A stretch of 64,000 nucleotides of DNA from an uncultured Lachnospiraceae bacterium (GTDB taxonomy: Bacteria > Bacillota > Clostridia > Eubacteriales > Anaerofustaceae): positions 1 to 64,000 of the forward strand of contig CALWKX010000020.1 of the NCBI GenBank assembly GCA_944381375.1, written 5' to 3'. A program made the translations under genes and the position numbers. How positions within the stretch are numbered: position 1 is the first letter of the stretch; every line of letters begins with the position of its first letter. Positions 1,673 through 55,193 of this stretch are shown here, in pieces. Below the pieces are notes generated by a model that did no database searches, was not told the origin of the DNA, and saw nothing but the letters and a program-made list of their open reading frames with translations.

Positions 1673-1689
1673 TCCTTTTTTTTGACTGA

Positions 1690-1767
1690 AGGGGCTCTTC
1701 CGTATATCGGGGATAGATAATAAATAAAGCGCGCATGGCGCGCTTTATTACATAAGCGGGGAGGGGA
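1690..1767 (+). repeat. G-tract/hairpin module, copy A
   Basis: Four G-tracts occur at 1691-1694, 1709-1712, 1758-1761 and 1763-1766. Between the second and third lies a near-perfect hairpin (about 1720-1750, arm TAATAAAGCGCGC). The flanks CGTATATCGGGG and CATAAGCGGGG are shared with other copies in the window, whereas the hairpin sequence varies. The order suggests a possible quadruplex with a hairpin as its long loop. Copy A is followed after 44 nt by cloverleaf element P1. Confidence 0.8.
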
Positions 1768-1810
1768 TTTTAAAGGCTCAGGGCGTTCGGCTCAGACAGC
1801 GGCCAGTATG

Positions 1811-1901
1811 CGCGGGCGGGCGCGGCCAACGCTAAAGCGTTGGCTGAAGCGGCTAAAGCCGCTTCAAAAGCCGCTGCGCGGCTGCGCCGCGCCCGCCCGC
1901 G
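1811..1901. repeat. Cloverleaf palindrome P1 (closing stem plus three hairpins)
   Basis: The closing stem pairs 1811-1826 with 1886-1901 (16 bp, arm CGCGGGCGGGCGCGGC). Inside are three hairpins: CAACGC-TAAA-GCGTTG (1827-1842), TGAAGCGGC-TAAA-GCCGCTTCA (about 1844-1866) and AGCCGC-TGC-GCGGCT (about 1869-1883). It lies between the two parS sites and shares hairpins with P5 and P7. Confidence 0.88.
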
Positions 1902-2359: not shown

Positions 2360-3730
2360 ATGACAAAAATTCCCTACAAGATCTATTTATCAGAAGACGA
2401 GATGCCGAAACAATGGTATAACATAAAGGCCGATATGAAAACTCAGCCTGCGCCGTTCTTGAACCCGGCAACGCTGAAACCGGTAACTGCTGACGATCTC
2501 AAGCAAATATTCTGCGAAGACGCAGTGGATCAGGAAATGAATAAAACGGATCGCTTTATTGATATTCCTGAAGAAATTCGTTCATTCTATAGAATGTACC
2601 GTCCCTCAGCATTAGTAAGAGCATATTGCTTGGAAGAAAAGCTTGGCACTCCGGCAAAAATTTACTATAAGTATGAAGGAACAAATACTTCAGGTTCTCA
2701 CAAACTCAATTCAGCAGTAGCTCAGGTTTATTACGCAAAGAAACAAGGCATTAAAAGCCTTACTACCGAAACCGGAGCAGGTCAGTGGGGCACAGCGCTT
2801 GCAATGGCAGGAGCGTATTTCGATATTCCCATAAAAGTATTTATGGTTAAAGTGTCTGCTGAACAGAAGCCTTACCGCAAGGCAGTTATGGAAACGTACG
2901 GAGCTGAGGTTATTCCCTCGCCTTCGGATACTACTGAGACGGGAAGAAGAATTTTGAAAGAAAATCCGAACACTGGCGGAAGCCTGGGATGCGCTATAAG
3001 CGAAGCTGTAGAAGAAGCGGTAAAAGGAGATAACTGCCGCTACGTACTTGGTTCCGTTTTGGATCATGTGCTGCTGCACCAAAGCGTTATAGGGCTTGAG
3101 ACAAAAACGGCACTTGAAAAATACGACATAAAACCCGATATAATTATAGGTTGCGTAGGCGGCGGAAGCAATTTCGGAGGACTTATAGGAATATTTGCAG
3201 GAGAAAAAATACAGGGAAAGAACAATATCAAATTTATCGCCGTTGAAAGCTCTTCCTGCCCATCAATGACCAGAGGACTTTTTGCTTACGATTATTGCGA
3301 CACGGGTAAAATGACTCCGCTTGCAAAAATGTACACACTCGGTTCAGGCTTTATCCCAAGTCCCAACCATGCGGGCGGATTGCGTTACCACGGAATGAGT
3401 CCCATAGTAAGCGAACTTTATCATCAGGGAATCATTGATGAAGCGCGTGCGCTTACACAAAAACAGGTATTTGAGGCGGCAACTTTGTTTGCTAAAAGTG
3501 AAGGTATCCTTCCCGCGCCGGAATCATCTCACGCCATACGCGCAGCGATTGATGAAGCGGTAAAATGCAGAGAAACCAATGAAGCAAAAACGATTGTGTT
3601 CGGTCTTACGGGCACGGGGTATTTCGATCTTGCCGCATACATGAAGTACAACAGCGGCGAGCTTACCGATATTGAAGTGACAAACGAAGCCCTTGAAGCA
3701 GGTTTCGCTTCATTGCCGAAAATAGATTGA
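2360..3730 (+). CDS. trpB: Tryptophan synthase beta chain, TrpB2 type
   Basis: The 456-residue PLP enzyme joins indole and serine to make tryptophan. The PLP lysine is in NTSGSHKLNSA (about residue 115), the catalytic Glu region is TTETGAGQWG, and the phosphate-binding loop is GCVGGGSNFGG. The length and N-terminal extension fit the stand-alone TrpB2 class rather than the 400-residue TrpB1 that pairs with TrpA. No trpA or other trp gene is adjacent. Start follows AAGGAGG. Control is by the Trp T-box directly upstream, which supports a tryptophan role. As a lone TrpB2 it may salvage indole. Confidence 0.95.
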   Translation: MTKIPYKIYLSEDEMPKQWYNIKADMKTQPAPFLNPATLKPVTADDLKQIFCEDAVDQEMNKTDRFIDIPEEIRSFYRMYRPSALVRAYCLEEKLGTPAKIYYKYEGTNTSGSHKLNSAVAQVYYAKKQGIKSLTTETGAGQWGTALAMAGAYFDIPIKVFMVKVSAEQKPYRKAVMETYGAEVIPSPSDTTETGRRILKENPNTGGSLGCAISEAVEEAVKGDNCRYVLGSVLDHVLLHQSVIGLETKTALEKYDIKPDIIIGCVGGGSNFGGLIGIFAGEKIQGKNNIKFIAVESSSCPSMTRGLFAYDYCDTGKMTPLAKMYTLGSGFIPSPNHAGGLRYHGMSPIVSELYHQGIIDEARALTQKQVFEAATLFAKSEGILPAPESSHAIRAAIDEAVKCRETNEAKTIVFGLTGTGYFDLAAYMKYNSGELTDIEVTNEALEAGFASLPKID

Positions 3731-5371: not shown

Positions 5372-5477
5372 TGGAAGAACTCATGTGCGTTTCATTAGAA
5401 CGAACGTCAAAGCTGCAAGACGATTATATTATTATGCCGTACGCAGTATTTAAGCAGAGCCGGTCAGCCCATTTTAA

Positions 5478-5560
5478 GTCCCCCGCCCCGCTTATGTTGC
5501 AAAGAGCGCGCCGAACGCGTCTTTGCGTACGGATCTGCCCCATATCAGGGTATCCCCTTA
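5478..5560 (-). repeat. G-tract/hairpin module, copy H
   Basis: On the minus strand, G-tracts correspond to C-runs at 5554-5557, 5538-5541, 5486-5489 and 5480-5484. A hairpin (GCAAAGACGCG with CGCGCTCTTTGC) lies between the second and third tracts. The conserved words ATATGGGGCAGAT and ACATAAGCGGGGCGGG are both present. No cloverleaf is next to it. Confidence 0.8.
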
Positions 5561-5707
5561 CAGTAATTATTCCAAAGCGAATATAAAATGAAAAATTTCC
5601 CGGGAAATTTCACAATATCAAAAAAGACTTATTTCTCCCTGCCCTTTTACTAACGCAGCTTTTCAGTGCACGAAAAAAATTGTCTGCAAACCGATATCAG
5701 TAGAGGT

Positions 5708-6360: not shown

Positions 6361-8772
6361 ATGAAAAAAACGATAAAAAAATTTTTTTGTATAGGACTGA
6401 CCATGGCAGTTCTGCTGGGAGTTTTCTCTCCCGCGGTATCGGCCGCAAGCGCTGAAACCGCCGCCGAGCAGACGTCCCTGGCCATGACGGGCGTTCCCGC
6501 GCCCCAAAACAATGCGGGAGCGGGCGTATTCTTTCTTGATGAAAACGGGACGCAGGCAAGTTGTGACACATACACGGAAATTGGAAGTGGGATGTTTACC
6601 TGGGGCGTAAAAGGAGAAAGCACCTGGTATGTTGCCGGCAGCACGTAGGAACTCGCAGAAAGAGTTACTGTAAACGGAGATGTCCATCTGATTCTGGTGG
6701 ATGGGGTCACCCTCACAGTCAGCGGTGGCATTCGGGTCGCAAGCGGCAGCAGCTTGACGATCTATGCCCAGTCTACCGAGGGCCTGATGGGCGCGCTGGT
6801 TGCCAACGCTTCGTCCGAAGGAAATGCAGGAATTGGCGGCAACGCAATGGAGTCCAACGGTGCGATCACAATAAACGGCGGGAAAATTACTGCAACAGGT
6901 GCGGATGCTAGCGGTAATAGAGGCGGCGGCTCTGGTATTGGCGGCGGAGAAGGCGTTAAGGTAAAGGGCACCATAACAATAAACGGAGGCAACATTACTG
7001 CGATCGGTGGCACAGGAGACTATGGAGCCGGTGCCGGCATCGGTGGAGGAGGCATCTCCTCCTATGTGGAGAAAATTGTCATTACTGGCGGTGTGATTTA
7101 TGCTGAGGCAGGGGCAAACGGTGCGGCCGGAATTGGCGGTGGCGGACACGATGGCATTCTGGAAACAATTGTAATTACAGGCGGGATTATTACGGCAAAA
7201 GGCACTTACCGGAATGGAATTCCCGGCAACGGACATGCCAACGCCATTGGCGGCGGCGGCGGTAAAAACGCTGCCGACCCCTCGGATTTCAACGATTGTA
7301 TAATTACAGACGTGCAGGCACAGAAAACGTCAATTTATGGGGATAAGAGCAACGATGGATACGCTGTCCTGAGTGAAAATTATATCATTGCAGATGGCGA
7401 AACGCTTGAAATTACGGAAGGGACAATTTTGGTTATCGAACGCGGCGTCACACTGACCAACAACGGAACGTTTATACACAACGGCGGGTTGGAAAACTAT
7501 GGAATGATTACAGGAGACGGAACGGTTATCCATCACCTGTCCAGCGGAACGGCCATCGATGCAAATGAGCATAGGGGTGCTTGTGGCTGCGGGGAACCGA
7601 TGCAGGGAGCGCATATCTTTGGAAACTATCGCGACAATGAGGACGGAACCCATACTGGGTACTGCAGTATTTGCCAATATGAAAAGGATACTTCTCATAC
7701 CTACAACACACAGATTATAAGCGATGCCTTTGTGCAAAGCTGTAGCCTCTGTGGGATGAAACGCACCATTACAGTCAGCAGCGTCATCGGCGAGTTGCAA
7801 TTTGATACATCGGGCCCGGATATTAAAGTGGGTCTGACGTTGCAGGCGGAGGCGAGCACGGATGTACAGGAAATGTCTTGGCAGTGGCAGAAGATGGAGA
7901 CCAAGACCGCATTTTCAATTGCGCCGAGTAAAGAAAATGACGAAGGCTATCGCCTATCCTACACCTACCAAGATGTGCCGGAGGGAGGAACCATCGCGTT
8001 TAGGTATCTGGCGTCTGCAGCCTGTCATTTTGATTATTATTTAAGTGGACCCGATCAGTCGAGGGAATACGTCAATGTGGATAAGGCCATGTCCGACTAC
8101 GAGACCGTTGTGTTTGCCGAATTGCCTGCTGGGACATATACACTGCATATTTATATGCCGTATGAAGATAATGTGCTGACGCTGGACATGCAGGCTGCAC
8201 AGGTAAGTTATGGAGTATATACCGATATCAGCGGGGCTGCCAAAGCGTCTTATACAGAAATGGCCTTTGAAAGCGGCGCACAATACCGTGTGCAGATATT
8301 CCTGGAAAACCAGACCCTCGTGCGGGAGTACCTCTGTCCGGAAAGGCTTACAATTAGCGGTGTGGAGGCACAGGTTGCGCAGTATGACGGCAGTGCCCAC
8401 ACAGGCTATACTGGAACTGCTGTTGTAGAGGGTTACAACGGGTATATTGAAGTGACCTATCAGATAAAAAACGGAGAGACCTATCGTGATATTGCCTCTG
8501 CACCGGTTGAACCGGGCCAGTACAGAGTTCTGTTCACCACTGTTTCAGAAGATGGGGCACTCTATGGAATTGAGGCTCTGGAATTTGCCATCACGGGGCA
8601 GGATACGTCATCAGACAACCCTGGAGAGGGTGACAACGGAGGAACAAACTCCGGAGAAAGTGCTGTGCAGACCGGCGACGAGAGTAACCTGTTTTTCTGG
8701 ACGGTTCTTCTGTGCACCAGTGCGGCGTGCCTTGCAGGAGCTGGCTTCGTATATAAAAGAGGCAGAAAGTAG
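6361..8772 (+). pseudogene. Surface-anchored glycine-rich repeat protein, interrupted by TAG
   Basis: A signal peptide (MKKTIKKFFCIGLTMAVLL, cleavage near AVSAASA) opens a frame of about 803 codons stopped by one in-frame TAG at 6646-6648; the frame stays open on both sides. Downstream are repeated ITINGG/VVITGG-type beta-helix units with GIGGG turns (about 6740-7260), a Cys-pair region (CGCGEP, CSICQ, CSLCG) and a C-terminal AVQTGDESN sorting-like motif, membrane segment and KRGRK tail. It resembles cell-wall-anchored adhesin-like proteins of gut Firmicutes. Codon use is richer in CTG, CAG and GGC than in neighbours, suggesting transfer. TAG ends other genes here, so suppression is unlikely. 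Confidence 0.72.
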
Positions 8773-12686: not shown

Positions 12687-12789
12687 GGGGCGCGCGCAGC
12701 GCCTTCGGACGCGGCCGAAGGCGCGTAAGGCAAGGCCAAGCCTTGCCTTATGGCAAATAAACGCAAGGTTTATTTGCCGCGCGCGCCCC
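12687..12789. repeat. Cloverleaf palindrome P2
   Basis: Closing stem GGGGCGCGCGC (12687-12697) pairs with 12779-12789. Three hairpins lie inside: GCGCCTTCGG/CCGAAGGCGC (12699-12724), TAAGGCAAGGC/GCCTTGCCTTA (12726-12750) and GGCAAATAAAC/GTTTATTTGCC (12752-12778). Stems are perfect, and they share no obvious sequence with P1. Confidence 0.9.
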
Positions 12790-13020: not shown

Positions 13021-13104
13021 TATATTCCCCGCCCGTCTAATGACGCAAGATGTCTTAAAACACATCTTGCCCCGTATCTGCCCCATACAAGGTAAGCCCC
13101 TCGT
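13021..13104 (-). repeat. G-tract/hairpin module, copy G
   Basis: Minus-strand G-tracts match C-runs at 13097-13100, 13081-13084, 13070-13073, 13032-13034 and 13027-13030. The hairpin GCAAGATGTG/CATCTTGC sits between the third and fourth runs. TATGGGGCAGATACG and the 3' GACGGGCGGGGAATATA follow the family pattern. Confidence 0.78.
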
Positions 13105-13132
13105 GATATTCTTGTATTGAGCCGGTTAGATT

Positions 13133-20871: not shown

Positions 20872-22716
20872 TTGCATAAGGAAGAACAAATAAGAAATAT
20901 AGCCATAATTGCGCATGTAGATCACGGAAAGACCACTCTCGTTGATGCAATGCTCAAACAAAGCGGCGTCTATCGAGAGAACCAGCAAGTTGTGGAACGA
21001 GTAATGGATTCCAACGACCTGGAACGTGAGCGCGGGATCACTATCCTTGCTAAAAATACAGCCGTAGAGTATAAGAACACGAAAATCAATATAGTGGATA
21101 CTCCCGGCCACGCTGATTTTTCCGGAGAGGTGGAACGTATTCTCAAAATGGTAAACGGCGTTTTGCTTTTAGTGGACGCCTCCGATGGTCCGATGCCGCA
21201 AACGCGCTTCGTGCTTTCCAAATCTTTGGAGCTCGGACATAAAGTAATAGTGGTGATAAATAAAATCGACCGTCCTGACGCCAGGATAGATCAGGTTATA
21301 GATGAAATCCTGGATTTGTTCATAGAATTGGGCGCAAGCGATGAGCAGTTGGACAGTCCGTTTATATTTTGTTCGGCTAAAAAAGGAACGGCAAGCGTTG
21401 AGCAGGATGTTGAGGGAACAAATCTTATTCCTCTTTTTGAAACGATACTTGAATATATACCTTCGCCTCCTCGCAATAAAGAAATGCCGCTTCAAATGTT
21501 GATCTCATCCATAGATTACAACGAATTTGTCGGCAGAATCGCCATCGGACGAATAGAACGGGGCATGATAAAGCAAAATCAGGAGCTTGTCGTGTGCAAT
21601 TATCACGATAAAAATATGCTTAAAAAAGCCAAAGCAGTCAATATTTATCAATTTGAAGGATTGAGCAGAGTGAGTGTCACTGAAGCTGCAGCGGGAAATA
21701 TTATAGCGCTTTCAGGTATACCGGATATAACAATAGGAGATACGGTTTGTTCGGCGGAATGTCCGCAGGCTCTTGAATTCGCTCAAATTTCCGCGCCGAC
21801 TATTGAAATGACATTTTCTGTAAACGATTCGCCTTTTGCAGGCAAAGAAGGCAAATACGTTACCTCGCGCAATATACGCGACAGACTCGAAAGAGAGCTT
21901 TTGAAAGACGTCTCATTAAAAGTAAGCGAACTTGATACTACTGATTCTTTCAATGTAGCAGGACGAGGAGAAATGCATTTATCAATATTGATAGAAACTA
22001 TGCGCAGAGAAGGCTATGAGTTTCAGGTTTCGCCTCCTCGAGTGCTTATGAAGGAAATAAACGGTATAAAGAGCGAGCCTGTAGAAAGGCTTGTTGCGGA
22101 CGTTCCTCAGGAATGTGCGGGCGCGGTTATTGAAAAATTAGGGCAAAGGCGCGGAGAGTTGCTAAATATGACGCCTATGGGAGCCAGAATGAAATTGGAA
22201 TTTCTTGCGCCCTCAAGAGGGCTGTTCGGTTACAGAAGCGAGTTTCTGACAGATACCAAAGGAGAGGGCATAATGGCAAGCGTTTTTGATTCGTATGCCC
22301 CGTACAAAGGGACGCTTTCGCGACGTTCGCAAGGCAGTCTTATCGCCTATGAAGCCGGTGAAGCGATTACTTACGGTTTGTACAATGCTCAAGAAAGAGG
22401 CCGGCTTTTTATCGGGCCGAATACTCCTGTATACGAAGGTATGGTTGTAGGCATTTCCTCAAATTCTAAAGACATACCAGTAAATGTGTGTAAGAGAAAA
22501 CAGCTTACAAATATGCGCGCCACAGGACATGACGATGCTTTAAGGCTTGTGCCGCATTTGAAAATGAGTCTTGAGCAGTGCATGGAGTTTTTGGCGGATG
22601 ATGAACTTTTGGAGATAACTCCTAAGTCTTTGAGGATAAGAAAGCGTATTCTCAATCACGAACAAAGAATGAAAGCCCAAAGCCGTGAAAAGAGCGGCGC
22701 AGCCGGCATAAAATAA
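20872..22716 (+). CDS. bipA: Ribosome-associated GTPase BipA/TypA
   Basis: The 614-residue translational GTPase has G1 AHVDHGKTT, the switch [14 protein letters not shown]3 DTPGHADF and G4 [10 protein letters not shown], then EF-G-like domains and the TypA-specific C-terminus. It aids 50S assembly and stress adaptation. Start TTG at 20872 is set by AAGAGGA a few bases upstream and by alignment with the family N-terminus; the longer ATG frame would run through repeat P3. Its last codons (SGAAGIK) and stop fall inside cloverleaf P4, so the C-terminal tail has been shaped by the repeat. Confidence 0.96.
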
Positions 22717-22831
22717 AAAGAGAAAGAAAATCTTTCTCTTTTTATTTTATGCGCAAATTGAACGCCTGCGTTCAATTTGCCCAGCGGCAGAAGAAAGCGC
22801 AGCGCGCTTTCTTCTGCCGCGGCTGCGCCGC
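22694..22831. repeat. Cloverleaf palindrome P4, overlapping the end of bipA
   Basis: Closing stem GCGGCGCAGCC (22694-22704) pairs with 22821-22831. Hairpins: about 22 bp at 22707-22752, GCAAATTGAACGC with its complement (about 22753-22780), and GCGGCAGAAGAAAGCGC with its complement (22784-22820). The 5' closing arm codes for the last bipA residues, and the bipA TAA (22714-22716) is inside hairpin 1. That hairpin also ends in a T-rich run and may terminate bipA. Confidence 0.92.
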
Positions 22832-22861
22832 CCTTTATCGGCTTTGAGCTTTCATCTAAGT

Positions 22862-22934
22862 AACCCACCCAGTTCAAGGAAGGAAAGCCTCACGGCTTTC
22901 TTTATCTGCCCCACAAAAGCGATCCCCTTGAGGT
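22862..22934 (-). repeat. G-tract/hairpin module, copy J
   Basis: Minus-strand G-tracts match C-runs at 22924-22927, 22909-22912, 22868-22870 and 22864-22866. A hairpin (AAGAAAGCC/GGCTTTCCTT) lies between runs two and three. Read on the minus strand it comes first, and P4 follows after about 33 nt, the same composite order as A-P1, B-P5 and C-P7. It abuts the pepV stop codon. Confidence 0.8.
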
Positions 22935-26345: not shown

Positions 26346-26377
26346 TTTGGGCATAATCATGCCGCGGACGAAATGCC

Positions 26378-26460
26378 TCAAGGGGCTTTCTCTGTTAGGG
26401 GGAGAATATGTACGGAAATAACGCAAAAGCGTAATTTCCAACATAAGCGGGGCGGGAATT
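26378..26460 (+). repeat. G-tract/hairpin module, copy D
   Basis: G-tracts at 26382-26385, 26398-26402, 26449-26452 and 26454-26456, with hairpin GGAAATAACGC-AAAA-GCGTAATTTCC between the second and third. The 3' word ACATAAGCGGGGCGGGAATT is identical to copies B and C apart from one base. No cloverleaf follows. Confidence 0.82.
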
Positions 26461-26723
26461 AAAAAATGCGGCGCTGATGTTGAATATATGTTTAGGCAGT
26501 CAATATTTTGCGTGGTTTTCAAATAATTAGTAATTGCCGCTGTATTCAGCGCTGCTGAATCTGCATGCGGTTTTGGCTTGCTGCATATTAAAATCGGGCT
26601 TTTTACTCCATATTTTTCATTGTATTACAATTTATAGTAATCTTAATTATCAATTAAATTCTTTGCCATGTTTGGTATATTCATTATAATAATACTTGTA
26701 TTGCCTCAAGGGGGAGAGAATAT

Positions 26724-29175: not shown

Positions 29176-29300
29176 TAATTCCCGCCCGCCCGTCTAATGT
29201 TAAAAGACGAAAAATCAGGGAATAAAAATACCGCTCAGGCAGCAGACTGAGGCGGTATTTTATTTTTCATCTTTTATACGGATACAAAGCCCCGGGTGCA
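29176..29300 (-). repeat. G-tract/hairpin module, copy I (divergent)
   Basis: On the minus strand the 3' end CATTAGACGGGCGGGCGGGAATT is family-like, and CCGGGGCTTTGTATCC stands in for the 5' end. The hairpin between (AATACCGCTCAG/CTGAGGCGGTATT, about 29226-29260) is strong and would also end transcription. Spacing is longer than in other copies. Confidence 0.5.
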
Positions 29301-31284: not shown

Positions 31285-31291
31285 TTTATAC

Positions 31292-31373
31292 CTTAAGGGG
31301 CCTTGCGTATATCGGGGACAGATAAAAAGTAAAGCGCGCATTATGCGCGCTTTACTACATTAGCGGGGCGGGA
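31292..31373 (+). repeat. G-tract/hairpin module, copy B
   Basis: G-tracts at 31297-31300, 31314-31317, 31365-31368 and 31370-31372, with hairpin AGTAAAGCGCGCA-TTA-TGCGCGCTTTACT between the second and third. Cloverleaf P5 follows after about 40 nt. Confidence 0.85.
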
Positions 31374-31408
31374 ATTAATGAAGCGGGATTATCTGGCTCA
31401 AACGGCAA

Positions 31409-31508
31409 AGACAAGCGGGCGGGCGCGGCCAACGCTTAAGCGTTGGCTGAAGCGGCTTCGCCGCTTCAATGGCCGCTTCGCGGCCTGCCGCGCCCGCCCG
31501 CACTTGTC
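31409..31508. repeat. Cloverleaf palindrome P5
   Basis: Closing stem GCGGGCGGGCGCGGC (31415-31429) pairs with 31487-31501, extended by GACAAG/CTTGTC. Hairpins: CCAACGC-TTAA-GCGTTGG, TGAAGCGGC-TTC-GCCGCTTCA and GGCCGC-TTC-GCGGCC. The first two are nearly the same as in P1, the last two also occur in P7. Confidence 0.9.
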
Positions 31509-35567: not shown

Positions 35568-36119
35568 ATGATAGAAAAAATAGTCGATATTGATTTTGCT
35601 ATTCTTGATTGGATAAGAGAGTATCTCACGTGCGGGTTTCTGGATTGGTTCATGCCGAAAATTACGCTTTTGGGCAACGGCGGCATCTTTTTTATTATAC
35701 TTTGTATTATCTTTGTTTTTTTTAAAAGAACGCGCAAATTGGGGTTAATGATGGCGGCAGGGCTTATTTTGTGCCTGATAACATGCAATCTTATTTTAAA
35801 GCCGCTTGTGGCGCGGGAAAGGCCCTTTTATATAAACGAGAGCGTTCTTCCTTTGCTTATCAAAACGCCGGGAGAATTTTCGTTCCCTTCAGGCCATACA
35901 ATTGTGAGTTTTACAAGCGCGTTTATTGCAATAAACCATGACAAACGTTTGGGAGCAGGATTGCTGGTGCTTGCAGTTATAATAGCTTTTTCAAGGCTTT
36001 ACCTTTATGTGCATTATCCGACGGATATACTTGCGTCTGTTATATTAGCGGCGTTGATAGCTTTAGTGGTTGTAAAGGGCGCTGATTTTATAGAAGGAAA
36101 GAAAACCAGGCGGGCTTGA
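35568..36119 (+). CDS. PAP2-family phosphatase
   Basis: The 183-residue membrane protein has the three PAP2 active-site motifs: KPLVARERP, PSGHT and SRLYLYVHYPTD. Such enzymes remove phosphate from undecaprenyl pyrophosphate or lipid phosphates at the membrane. The start at 35568 is chosen for the family-like N-terminus (MIEKIVDIDFAILDWI); no ribosome site is present and the mRNA may be leaderless. The last codons (KTRRA, stop TGA at 36117-36119) are inside the closing stem of cloverleaf P6. Confidence 0.88.
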   Translation: MIEKIVDIDFAILDWIREYLTCGFLDWFMPKITLLGNGGIFFIILCIIFVFFKRTRKLGLMMAAGLILCLITCNLILKPLVARERPFYINESVLPLLIKTPGEFSFPSGHTIVSFTSAFIAINHDKRLGAGLLVLAVIIAFSRLYLYVHYPTDILASVILAALIALVVVKGADFIEGKKTRRA

Positions 36120-36287
36120 GGCGCGCAGCGCGGCAATAGACGTCAAAGGAAAAATATTTTTCCTTTGACGTCTATTGCTTATCCGCGCGAAGCGTTAAGC
36201 TTCGCGCGGATGCACAAAAGAAGGAATTGAAAGTAACCTTTCAATTCCTTCTTTTGTGCTGCGCGCCTCAAGCCCGCCATGGTTTTC
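36101..36287. repeat. Cloverleaf palindrome P6, overlapping the end of the PAP2 gene
   Basis: The longest copy. Closing arms 36101-36127 and 36260-36287 pair over about 27 bp with one bulge. Hairpins: GCAATAGACGTCAAAGGA with its complement (36133-36178), TCCGCGCGAAGC with its complement (36182-36210) and a 21-bp stem at 36212-36259. The PAP2 stop codon lies within the 5' closing arm. Confidence 0.93.
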
Positions 36288-42157: not shown

Positions 42158-42161
42158 GCTT

Positions 42162-42243
42162 AAAGGGGCCGGCCGTATATCGGGGCGGATGTATACGGAA
42201 AGCGCGCGTTGTGCGCGCTTTCCAACATAAGCGGGGCGGGAAT
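42162..42243 (+). repeat. G-tract/hairpin module, copy C
   Basis: It carries four G-tracts in AAAGGGGCC, TATCGGGGCGG and AGCGGGGCGGG. The hairpin GGAAAGCGCGC/GCGCGCTTTCC lies between the second and third. Five nt after the GDPD stop. P7 follows after about 43 nt. Confidence 0.85.
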
Positions 42244-42285
42244 TAGTGGTGTGTCCCGAATACTTCGCTATGACGCAGCATGCAG

Positions 42286-48824: not shown

Positions 48825-48926
48825 AGTTTTTCCGTGAATAAATTTTGTCTTATACATAGGACATAAAAAGTATAAGTTAATTTATATAAGAACGTGTCTA
48901 TAATATAGGACAAAATATTAATATAT

Positions 48927-49091
48927 GATTAAAGACAACGGCAGGGGCGCGCCGCGTGCAAGGGCTTGCGGCCCTTGCAAAATGCAAGGTTTGTAAACCT
49001 TGCATTTTCGAGCGGGGCACGTAAAGGCGAATTTTTCGCGCTTTAATCCGTGCGCCGCTTCCGCGGCGCGCCCTTGCCATTGTCTTTAATC
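48927..49091. repeat. Cloverleaf palindrome P8
   Basis: Closing arms 48927-48956 and 49062-49091 pair over about 30 nt with two mismatches; the outer GATTAAAGACAA part is AT-rich, the inner part G+C-rich. Hairpins: TGCAAGGGC/GCCCTTGCA (48957-48979), AAATGCAAGGTTT with its complement (48980-49008), and AGCGGGGCACG/CGTGCGCCGCT (49011-49059) with its own inner stem. Confidence 0.9.
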
Positions 49092-49213
49092 ACCCTTAAT
49101 ATAAGATATTCCGTTTAATTCGCTGTGAACAGCTCAGTATAAAATAACTTTTTTATTTTTTTCTTGCATTACATAAATTTTAATGTATAATAAATATTGC
49201 TTTATTAAGCAGC

Positions 49214-49298: not shown

Positions 49299-49473
49299 TT
49301 TTGCTGACGATCACCTTGTAAATTTATATAATTGACAAGCAAAGATGTCAGTTTTTTTTATTGTAACTAATTAAAACATAAATCAGAAAAAGAAATGATC
49401 ATTGACTGATTATTATTATTTTAGGAGTATATAGCAAAGAAAGCATTGAGAGATATAAAAATGCGGCATTATT

Positions 49474-49557
49474 AAATTCCCGCCCCGCTAATGTAGAAAG
49501 ATCACCTTAAGTGATCTTTCTTTGATTTGCCCCGTTATAAGGAAGCCCCCTCGGCGG
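49474..49557 (-). repeat. G-tract/hairpin module, copy F
   Basis: Minus-strand G-tracts match C-runs at 49546-49550, 49530-49533, 49483-49486 and 49479-49481. Hairpin AGAAAGATCAC/GTGATCTTTCT lies between the second and third. The 3' end ACATTAGCGGGGCGGGAATT is near-identical to copies B, C and D. Confidence 0.84.
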
Positions 49558-54147: not shown

Positions 54148-54283
54148 TTCATTTTCATTTAGCGCCGTCTGATGAATAAAATTTCTGTTATTTATTTTTG
54201 TTTCCATGCAAATATAAAGGAATCAAAAATTAAATGTTGCTGTTATGCTGATCTTTGAGTTTCGGCATATAGTATTATTTAAC

Positions 54284-54368
54284 TTGAGGGCTCGGCTTAA
54301 GGCTGGGCAGATCATAGGGAAACGCCTTGCGGCGTTTTTCGACATTAGCCGGGCGGGGATTAGTAGGG
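54284..54368 (+). repeat. G-tract/hairpin module, copy E
   Basis: G-tracts in TTGAGGGCTC, GCTGGGCAGAT, AGCCGGGCGGGGA; hairpin AAACGCC/GGCGTTT between the second and third. The words GGGCAGAT and GACATTAG match the family. Tracts are partly reduced to three G. Confidence 0.75.
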
Positions 54369-54721
54369 CGCCGCTTTTTGGGAAAATCGTATTTGTAAAA
54401 AAACGAGCATGTGTATTTTAAACATATAAGGGTCGATACCATGGGGCGAAAACGGGGCTTAGCTTTAAAGACGGAACATATTTATTTATATCTGAAAATT
54501 ACAAATGGTTAAAGTTAAAGTTAAATTTTATGTTCAGTTTTAACTTTAAGTGTCATTTATGGCAGAAGATATACTTGAATTTTATTTTGGTCATTTTATG
54601 TCACTTTTTTTATTTCAAATACACATTAATCTATATATATAAAAATCGAAAAATTCGGTTTAGTGTACATACATATGTATACTAAATTGTTTATTATAAA
54701 ATTACAATATGGATTAATGAG
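54369..54721. other. AT-rich intergenic region with operator-like dyad
   Basis: No gene is visible. A 24-bp imperfect dyad around TAGTGTACATACATATGTAT (about 54660-54684) lies 45 nt before the next start codon and may be a regulator site. Three copies of a GTTAAA-type word are at about 54508-54526. Confidence 0.45.
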
Positions 54722-55072: not shown

Positions 55073-55193
55073 ACCCACCCGCCCGCCCCGCCGGCGCGGC
55101 CTTGTTTAAGGCAATAGCCTTAAACAAGGCTGAGCGGTTCCCGCTTAATGTCCGCGCAGCGGACAGCCGCGCCGGCGGGGCGGGCGGGTGGGT
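55073..55193. repeat. Cloverleaf palindrome P9
   Basis: A perfect 28-bp closing stem (55073-55100 with 55166-55193) made almost only of G and C. Hairpins: CTTGTTTAAGGC-AATA-GCCTTAAACAAG (55101-55128), AGCGG-TTC-CCGCT (about 55132-55145) and GTCCGC-GCA-GCGGAC (55150-55165). Confidence 0.94.

Follow-up and report, generated by a model that had tools for sequence, protein, structure and literature searches.

To our knowledge, the small palindromic repeats of bacterial genomes described so far each consist of one hairpin carrying a tag for a Y1 transposase. MITEs, such as RUP and the Correia elements, have ends that match a parent transposase, and the GC clusters or double-hairpin elements of fungal mitochondria are organellar, mobile, GC-rich sequences of one or two hairpins. 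REPs and BIMEs are abundant, short, intergenic palindromes of 3′ regions that occur in composite arrangements, with compensating changes keeping their structure (PMC2817692); individual REPs are single imperfect palindromes of 20–40 bp, tagged GTAG or CGTC (PMC3733652). The quadruplex-forming G-rich repeats of Xanthomonas and Nostoc are short tandem repeats (PMC4692102).

The element analysed here is a two-part repeat, comprising a G-tract hairpin module and, 3′ of it, a cloverleaf, with ~14 copies in the 1.54-Mb genome of a gut-type bacterium (a 38-contig draft assembly, 92.65% complete). Like REPs and BIMEs, it is high-copy, extragenic and biased to 3′ ends; they differ in that REPs are single palindromes with a Y1 transposase, whereas the composite has a four-stem cloverleaf and the single palindrome with a fixed tag was not found, inspection by eye revealing no common tetranucleotide at the outer-stem flanks. 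A search for Y1 tyrosine transposase (PF01797), positive in 5/14 genomes as a control, gave 0 matches in the assembled genome, which also yielded neither a TnpB (PF07282) of IS200/IS605 type nor a reverse transcriptase (PF00078) of the kind found in retrons, diversity-generating elements or group II introns; with none of the three found in the assembly, this is not a REP/RAYT system. The composite resembles MITEs in being non-autonomous, dispersed, non-coding and a few hundred bp long, with inverted repeats at its ends, but its outer arms vary between copies, no parent element was identified, and its module is asymmetric and sequence-specific. Fungal mitochondrial GC clusters are likewise small, multi-hairpin and conserved in shape, although they have no G-tract head. 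The Xanthomonas and Nostoc repeats share an intergenic location and quadruplex potential with the composite, in which, however, four dispersed tracts surround a hairpin and are joined to a cloverleaf. A search of the library consulted gave no match for repeats of cloverleaf or three-hairpin form, and the composite probably adds a new variety to the small palindromic repeats known from bacterial genomes.

Elements were located in the window (the whole 64-kb stretch of DNA analysed, part of contig C20) with R1, a covariance model of the G-tract module built from collected copies, and with a sequence-blind scanner for an outer stem around three contiguous hairpins (cut-off 26), so that the cloverleaf was not defined from the copies beside modules. 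Strand is given where assigned.

1657–1672: parS-type palindrome TGTTTCACGTGAAACA, left of composite A
1686–1771, plus strand: G-tract module A (R1 80.3 bits, E 3e-16 for the whole genome)
1811–1901, plus strand: cloverleaf P1, 39 nt after A; outer stem 16 bp, hairpins 6/9/6 bp (scanner score 34; RNA fold z −5.6)
1947–1962: parS-type palindrome TGTTTCACGTGAAACA, right of composite A
5476–5563, minus strand: solo G-tract module (R1 73.6 bits), cloverleaf-free for 3.5 kb
12687–12789: cloverleaf P2, no linked module (score 41.5)
13022–13106, minus strand: G-tract module G (R1 60.8 bits), 232 nt before P2
20622–20741: cloverleaf without module (score 48.5)
22689–22836, minus strand: cloverleaf P4, downstream of J; outer stem 16 bp, hairpins 22/12/16 bp (score 63)
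22858–22933, minus strand: divergent G-tract module J (R1 21.1 bits, E 0.0024 for the window)
26376–26462, plus strand: solo G-tract module (R1 84.5 bits)
31291–31378, plus strand: G-tract module B (R1 90.9 bits), stop codon 6 nt upstream
31415–31501, plus strand: cloverleaf P5, gap 36 nt, internal polarity like that of P1 (score 33.5; fold z −8.5)
36109–36278: cloverleaf without module, arms 20–21 bp (score 71.5)
42159–42246, plus strand: G-tract module C (R1 98.2 bits), directly abutting the preceding stop codon
42286–42380, minus strand: cloverleaf P7, gap 39 nt; hairpins 1 and 3 swapped relative to P1 and P5 by alignment (score 37.5)
48944–49074: cloverleaf P8, third hairpin irregular (identified by folding; inverted arms 48926–49092)
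49473–49556, minus strand: G-tract module F (R1 70.6 bits), 398 nt before P8 with a tRNA-Tyr between
54282–54363, plus strand: solo G-tract module (R1 53.2 bits)
55073–55193: cloverleaf P9, outer stem 28 bp (score 48.5)

All four close pairs named in the original prediction (A–P1, B–P5, C–P7 and J–P4) were confirmed as a module followed by a cloverleaf, at distances of 39, 36, 39 and 21 nt in place of the 44, ~40, ~43 and ~33 nt first given; the J–P4 gap is counted from the end of the model. Despite its low score, J possesses all four G tracts and a hairpin. A partial match at 29185 on the minus strand (18 bits), with only a simple hairpin downstream, was considered as J and rejected in favour of 22858–22933.

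The two families had been proposed to form one composite of constant order, to be checked by tabulating distances genome-wide against random placement, and this they do. Across the genome, a cloverleaf lies downstream of 13 R1 modules and of the divergent J, and upstream of none (14/14 linked cloverleafs on the same side, p 1e-4). Within contigs C20, C22, C6 and C24, 9/24 modules had a cloverleaf ≤70 nt downstream and 0 had one upstream, compared with a mean of 0.67 linked pairs when elements were placed at random in the intergenic DNA of the same contigs; the maximum was 5, and 0/5000 trials reached nine (P<0.0002). Four further linked copies were found in contigs C15, C16 and C19. The gap from module end to the stem base of the cloverleaf spans a narrow range, 21–64 nt, so that the spacing, originally described as fixed, is constrained without being of constant length. 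By contrast, the looser pairs that had been taken for separated versions, G–P2 and F–P8, lie at distances expected by chance, as does the module at 54282 relative to P9 (709 nt), which leaves that part of the prediction unsupported.

Spacers between module and cloverleaf, in which a ACGGCAAA-like motif recurs, were more alike between composite copies than shuffled sequences (z 5.1, weak but significant), whereas in the 45-nt flanks outside the composites likeness was much lower or absent (z 2.4 and 1.7). Module, spacer and cloverleaf therefore probably descend together, sharing ancestry as a unit, at least in the majority subtype. In two composites, J–P4 and C22:130071, the cloverleaf sequence is unrelated to that of the others, and the association is thus not simply a single recent amplification. 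The majority of cloverleafs lack a module and about half of the modules lack a cloverleaf, which points to two families with only part of their members fused. An apparently decayed module (TATATCGTGCGGATTGAATGGGCGGGATTTAA) without its hairpin precedes a cloverleaf at 8327–8600 of locus L058 (C22:108327 onward). Contigs of draft assemblies break inside elements (at the end of L029, the start of L136 and several contig ends of the related genome G010), so copy numbers are underestimates.

Modules were initially gathered with a pattern for the 3′ core, allowing one mismatch, which gave 16 matches (0 for the reversed pattern); R1 then recovered ~30 copies at genome-wide E≤0.01, eight strong ones within the window. 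The module is ~85 nt long, oriented and conserved in sequence, with the consensus AAGGGG-N~12-GGGG-CARAT-ACGTACG-GAAAG(hairpin)CTTTC-AACATNA-GCGGGGCGGGAATT, in which the context of the second tract may also be written GGGG-NARAT, and the 3′ part reads ACATNA...GGGNGGGAATT, that is, ACATNA followed by GGG-N-GGG-AATT. The hairpin covaries: two-sided changes were seen at 11/11 pairs and 96.6% of cells were paired, against 24–73% in slid controls, in an alignment that was fitted to the structure but with which the first MAFFT alignment agrees. Four tracts of at least three Gs are retained on the same strand in 28/29 modules, the tract pattern of a G-quadruplex sequence, while the base within the final GGGNGGG is free (C19/T7/A2). 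Judged by these tracts, the module could fold into a quadruplex of three layers in which the hairpin is one loop, a loop long enough to fall outside standard quadruplex prediction. A second stem around tract 2 (CCGTAT...ATACGG), plausible at first sight in several copies, was discarded, as partners permuted among copies folded equally well (158/300).

The scanner found 34 cloverleafs in ~436 kb of this genome and 0 in 640 kb of first-order Markov control sequence, where the best score was 20. Each is 80–170 nt long with four stems, and a search allowing a variable number of hairpins returned exactly three in 30/30 chains. Arms are perfectly paired and mostly unrelated in sequence between copies; scanner-defined stems contained 1608 Watson-Crick pairs, 8 G-T pairs and 9 others. 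Relaxing the scan to tolerate G-T pairs added mainly chance matches in AT-rich or coding DNA, together with about three real, irregular copies. When cloverleafs were folded as RNA, G-U pairs made up 1.0%, compared with 4.4% for this genome's terminators (61 hairpins; p 2e-7), a supporting rather than decisive difference because the count included both strands of each element and the scanner is biased towards Watson-Crick pairs. Only this fold-based count separated cloverleafs from terminators; the G-T content of scanner-defined stems did not. The scarcity of G-U pairs leans towards structure kept in DNA, or in both strands, rather than in a single RNA.

In the common subtype, the arm of hairpin 1 is of the AGCTTAAG type and that of hairpin 3 of the GGCCGC type. 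These two hairpins are exchanged, that is, the cloverleaf is reversed relative to its module, in 4/12 classifiable composites (C–P7, L032, L034 and L035), a flip that would follow from inversion between the outer arms, which are nearly identical. Of the claim that order and orientation were the same in all four original pairs, order therefore stands, while the C–P7 cloverleaf is inverted.

Composites are placed with respect to genes. Modules lay sense to the preceding gene in 23/30 cases (23:7, p 0.005), usually immediately behind its stop codon or terminator and typically 1–85 nt past the stop codon, and showed no preference relative to the downstream gene (14:15). Reading the upstream sequences by eye placed about a dozen of them behind a complete intrinsic terminator and revealed no shared promoter ahead of the modules. 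Cloverleafs occurred in 13 convergent and 2 divergent gaps, against a background of 47 and 55 (p 0.004). The module had also been predicted to give the nearly symmetric cloverleaf a direction: the composite as a whole is directional, but the cloverleaf flips freely within it and the module does not fix its polarity.

The module was present in 1/67 genomes of the order, and since no relative carries it among these genomes, sampled at one per species, no empty site could be demonstrated. The sole match in a relative (G035, 31 bits) was removed at a stricter cut-off. Plasmid, phage and viral contig collections lacked the module; of five pattern matches in contigs of unrelated organisms, the one inspected (L021) fell in coding sequence and was put down to chance. 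Rfam produced no element match at gathering score, its matches in the window being only a T-box and tRNAs. The sister genus g5 (genomes G010 and G004) has three-hairpin cloverleafs of its own sequence and lacks the module; these are bounded by C-run/G-run arms, sometimes form tandem pairs, and often lie right after terminators and at contig ends. In G010, for example, a tandem pair sits within a larger C-run/G-run inverted repeat with a terminator immediately before it (L114, 14129–14291). Most other sampled genera had no GC-rich cloverleafs.

The reading we favour, with moderate confidence, is that the composite is a dispersed DNA repeat, structured and non-autonomous, that resides at gene 3′ ends and works in the manner of REP/BIME or MITE sequences. 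Its head would be a directional G-tract module recognised by sequence, and its body a palindromic cloverleaf that could be extruded in the cell from either strand as a four-way junction. The body would be kept for its shape, arm sequence turning over while complementarity stays perfect, and could flip between its nearly symmetric outer arms. Such a composite may spread or persist just past transcription units, sense to the preceding gene, through the action of enzymes in trans. Restriction of the module to one lineage, as is usual for selfish repeats, counts towards this reading; the want of an empty site, and of a candidate mover among the Y1, TnpB and reverse transcriptase families in the assembled genome, counts against it.

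REP sequences in E. coli act at mRNA 3′ ends against exonucleases, and the main rival reading is that the composite is likewise a 3′-end RNA element, a G-tract hairpin and cloverleaf in the mRNA tail of the preceding gene that would halt or delay transcription and bar the way to 3′ exonucleases. The sense bias could fit an RNA function equally well, the more so where modules lie 1–50 nt past a stop codon with no intervening terminator visible, as they often do; RNA folding is strong for P1 and P5, and the module hairpin covaries. Modules that follow a complete terminator, however, fall outside the mRNA, G-U pairs are rarer in cloverleafs than in genuine terminators, the polarity of the cloverleaf can be reversed, and many module-less cloverleafs lie between convergent genes. 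The module hairpin is not followed by a U-run, and there is no Rfam relative; we regard an RNA element as somewhat unlikely. That two independent intergenic families, each favouring gene 3′ ends, are adjacent by chance is extremely improbable: a preference for intergenic 3′ regions is common to both, and the majority of members are unlinked, but the intergenic-only null refutes this unless it badly understates clustering, and neither the one-sided order nor the likeness of spacers between copies would be expected.

Location raises a further alternative, an origin-proximal chromosome-organisation site (near the ParB centromere, for example as a barrier or as a site for gyrase or a nucleoid protein). 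Perfect parS sites number just two in the assembled genome, and they bracket composite A, 290 bp apart. The contig that bears them, C20 (85 kb; the window plus 64744–84743), holds 12/31 modules where 1.7 are expected (p 4e-8), cloverleafs are far scarcer in sampled stretches of other contigs, and G004 has a three-hairpin cloverleaf (L160, 1317–1421; C-run/G-run arms) at a distance of ~80 nt from its parS pair. Against this, module density was counted by contig in a draft of 38 unordered contigs, other composites are spread over at least five more contigs, parS in G010 has no cloverleaf nearby, and the coincidence with parS was spotted after the fact; we consider such a site improbable. Also unlikely, though less so, is a new class of DNA elements defined by shape and not by sequence, in which a quadruplex-hairpin head and a body obliged to have exactly three hairpins would be maintained and moved, or used to organise the chromosome near parS, by a dedicated protein machinery that recognises folded DNA and belongs to no known transposase type.

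Whichever reading holds, a strict three-hairpin architecture with almost no common arm sequence is, in part of its copies, fused to an oriented, covarying G-tract module. Perfect multi-arm palindromes should be unstable, and the composite offers a target for asking how bacteria make and keep them.

Elements in the window have ordinary genes as neighbours: carbon-nitrogen hydrolase, PP-loop ATPase, GDPD, pyruvate-ferredoxin oxidoreductase and EF-Ts. Soon after composite A, a T-box leader (2069–2315) lies upstream of a 456-aa ORF (2360–3730), and AT-rich direct repeats (AAAGTTAAAGTTAAA) occur at 54500–54600, downstream of the solo module at 54282. Pairs of parS sites were also seen in the relatives G004 and G009, 37 and 47 bp apart and at different loci.
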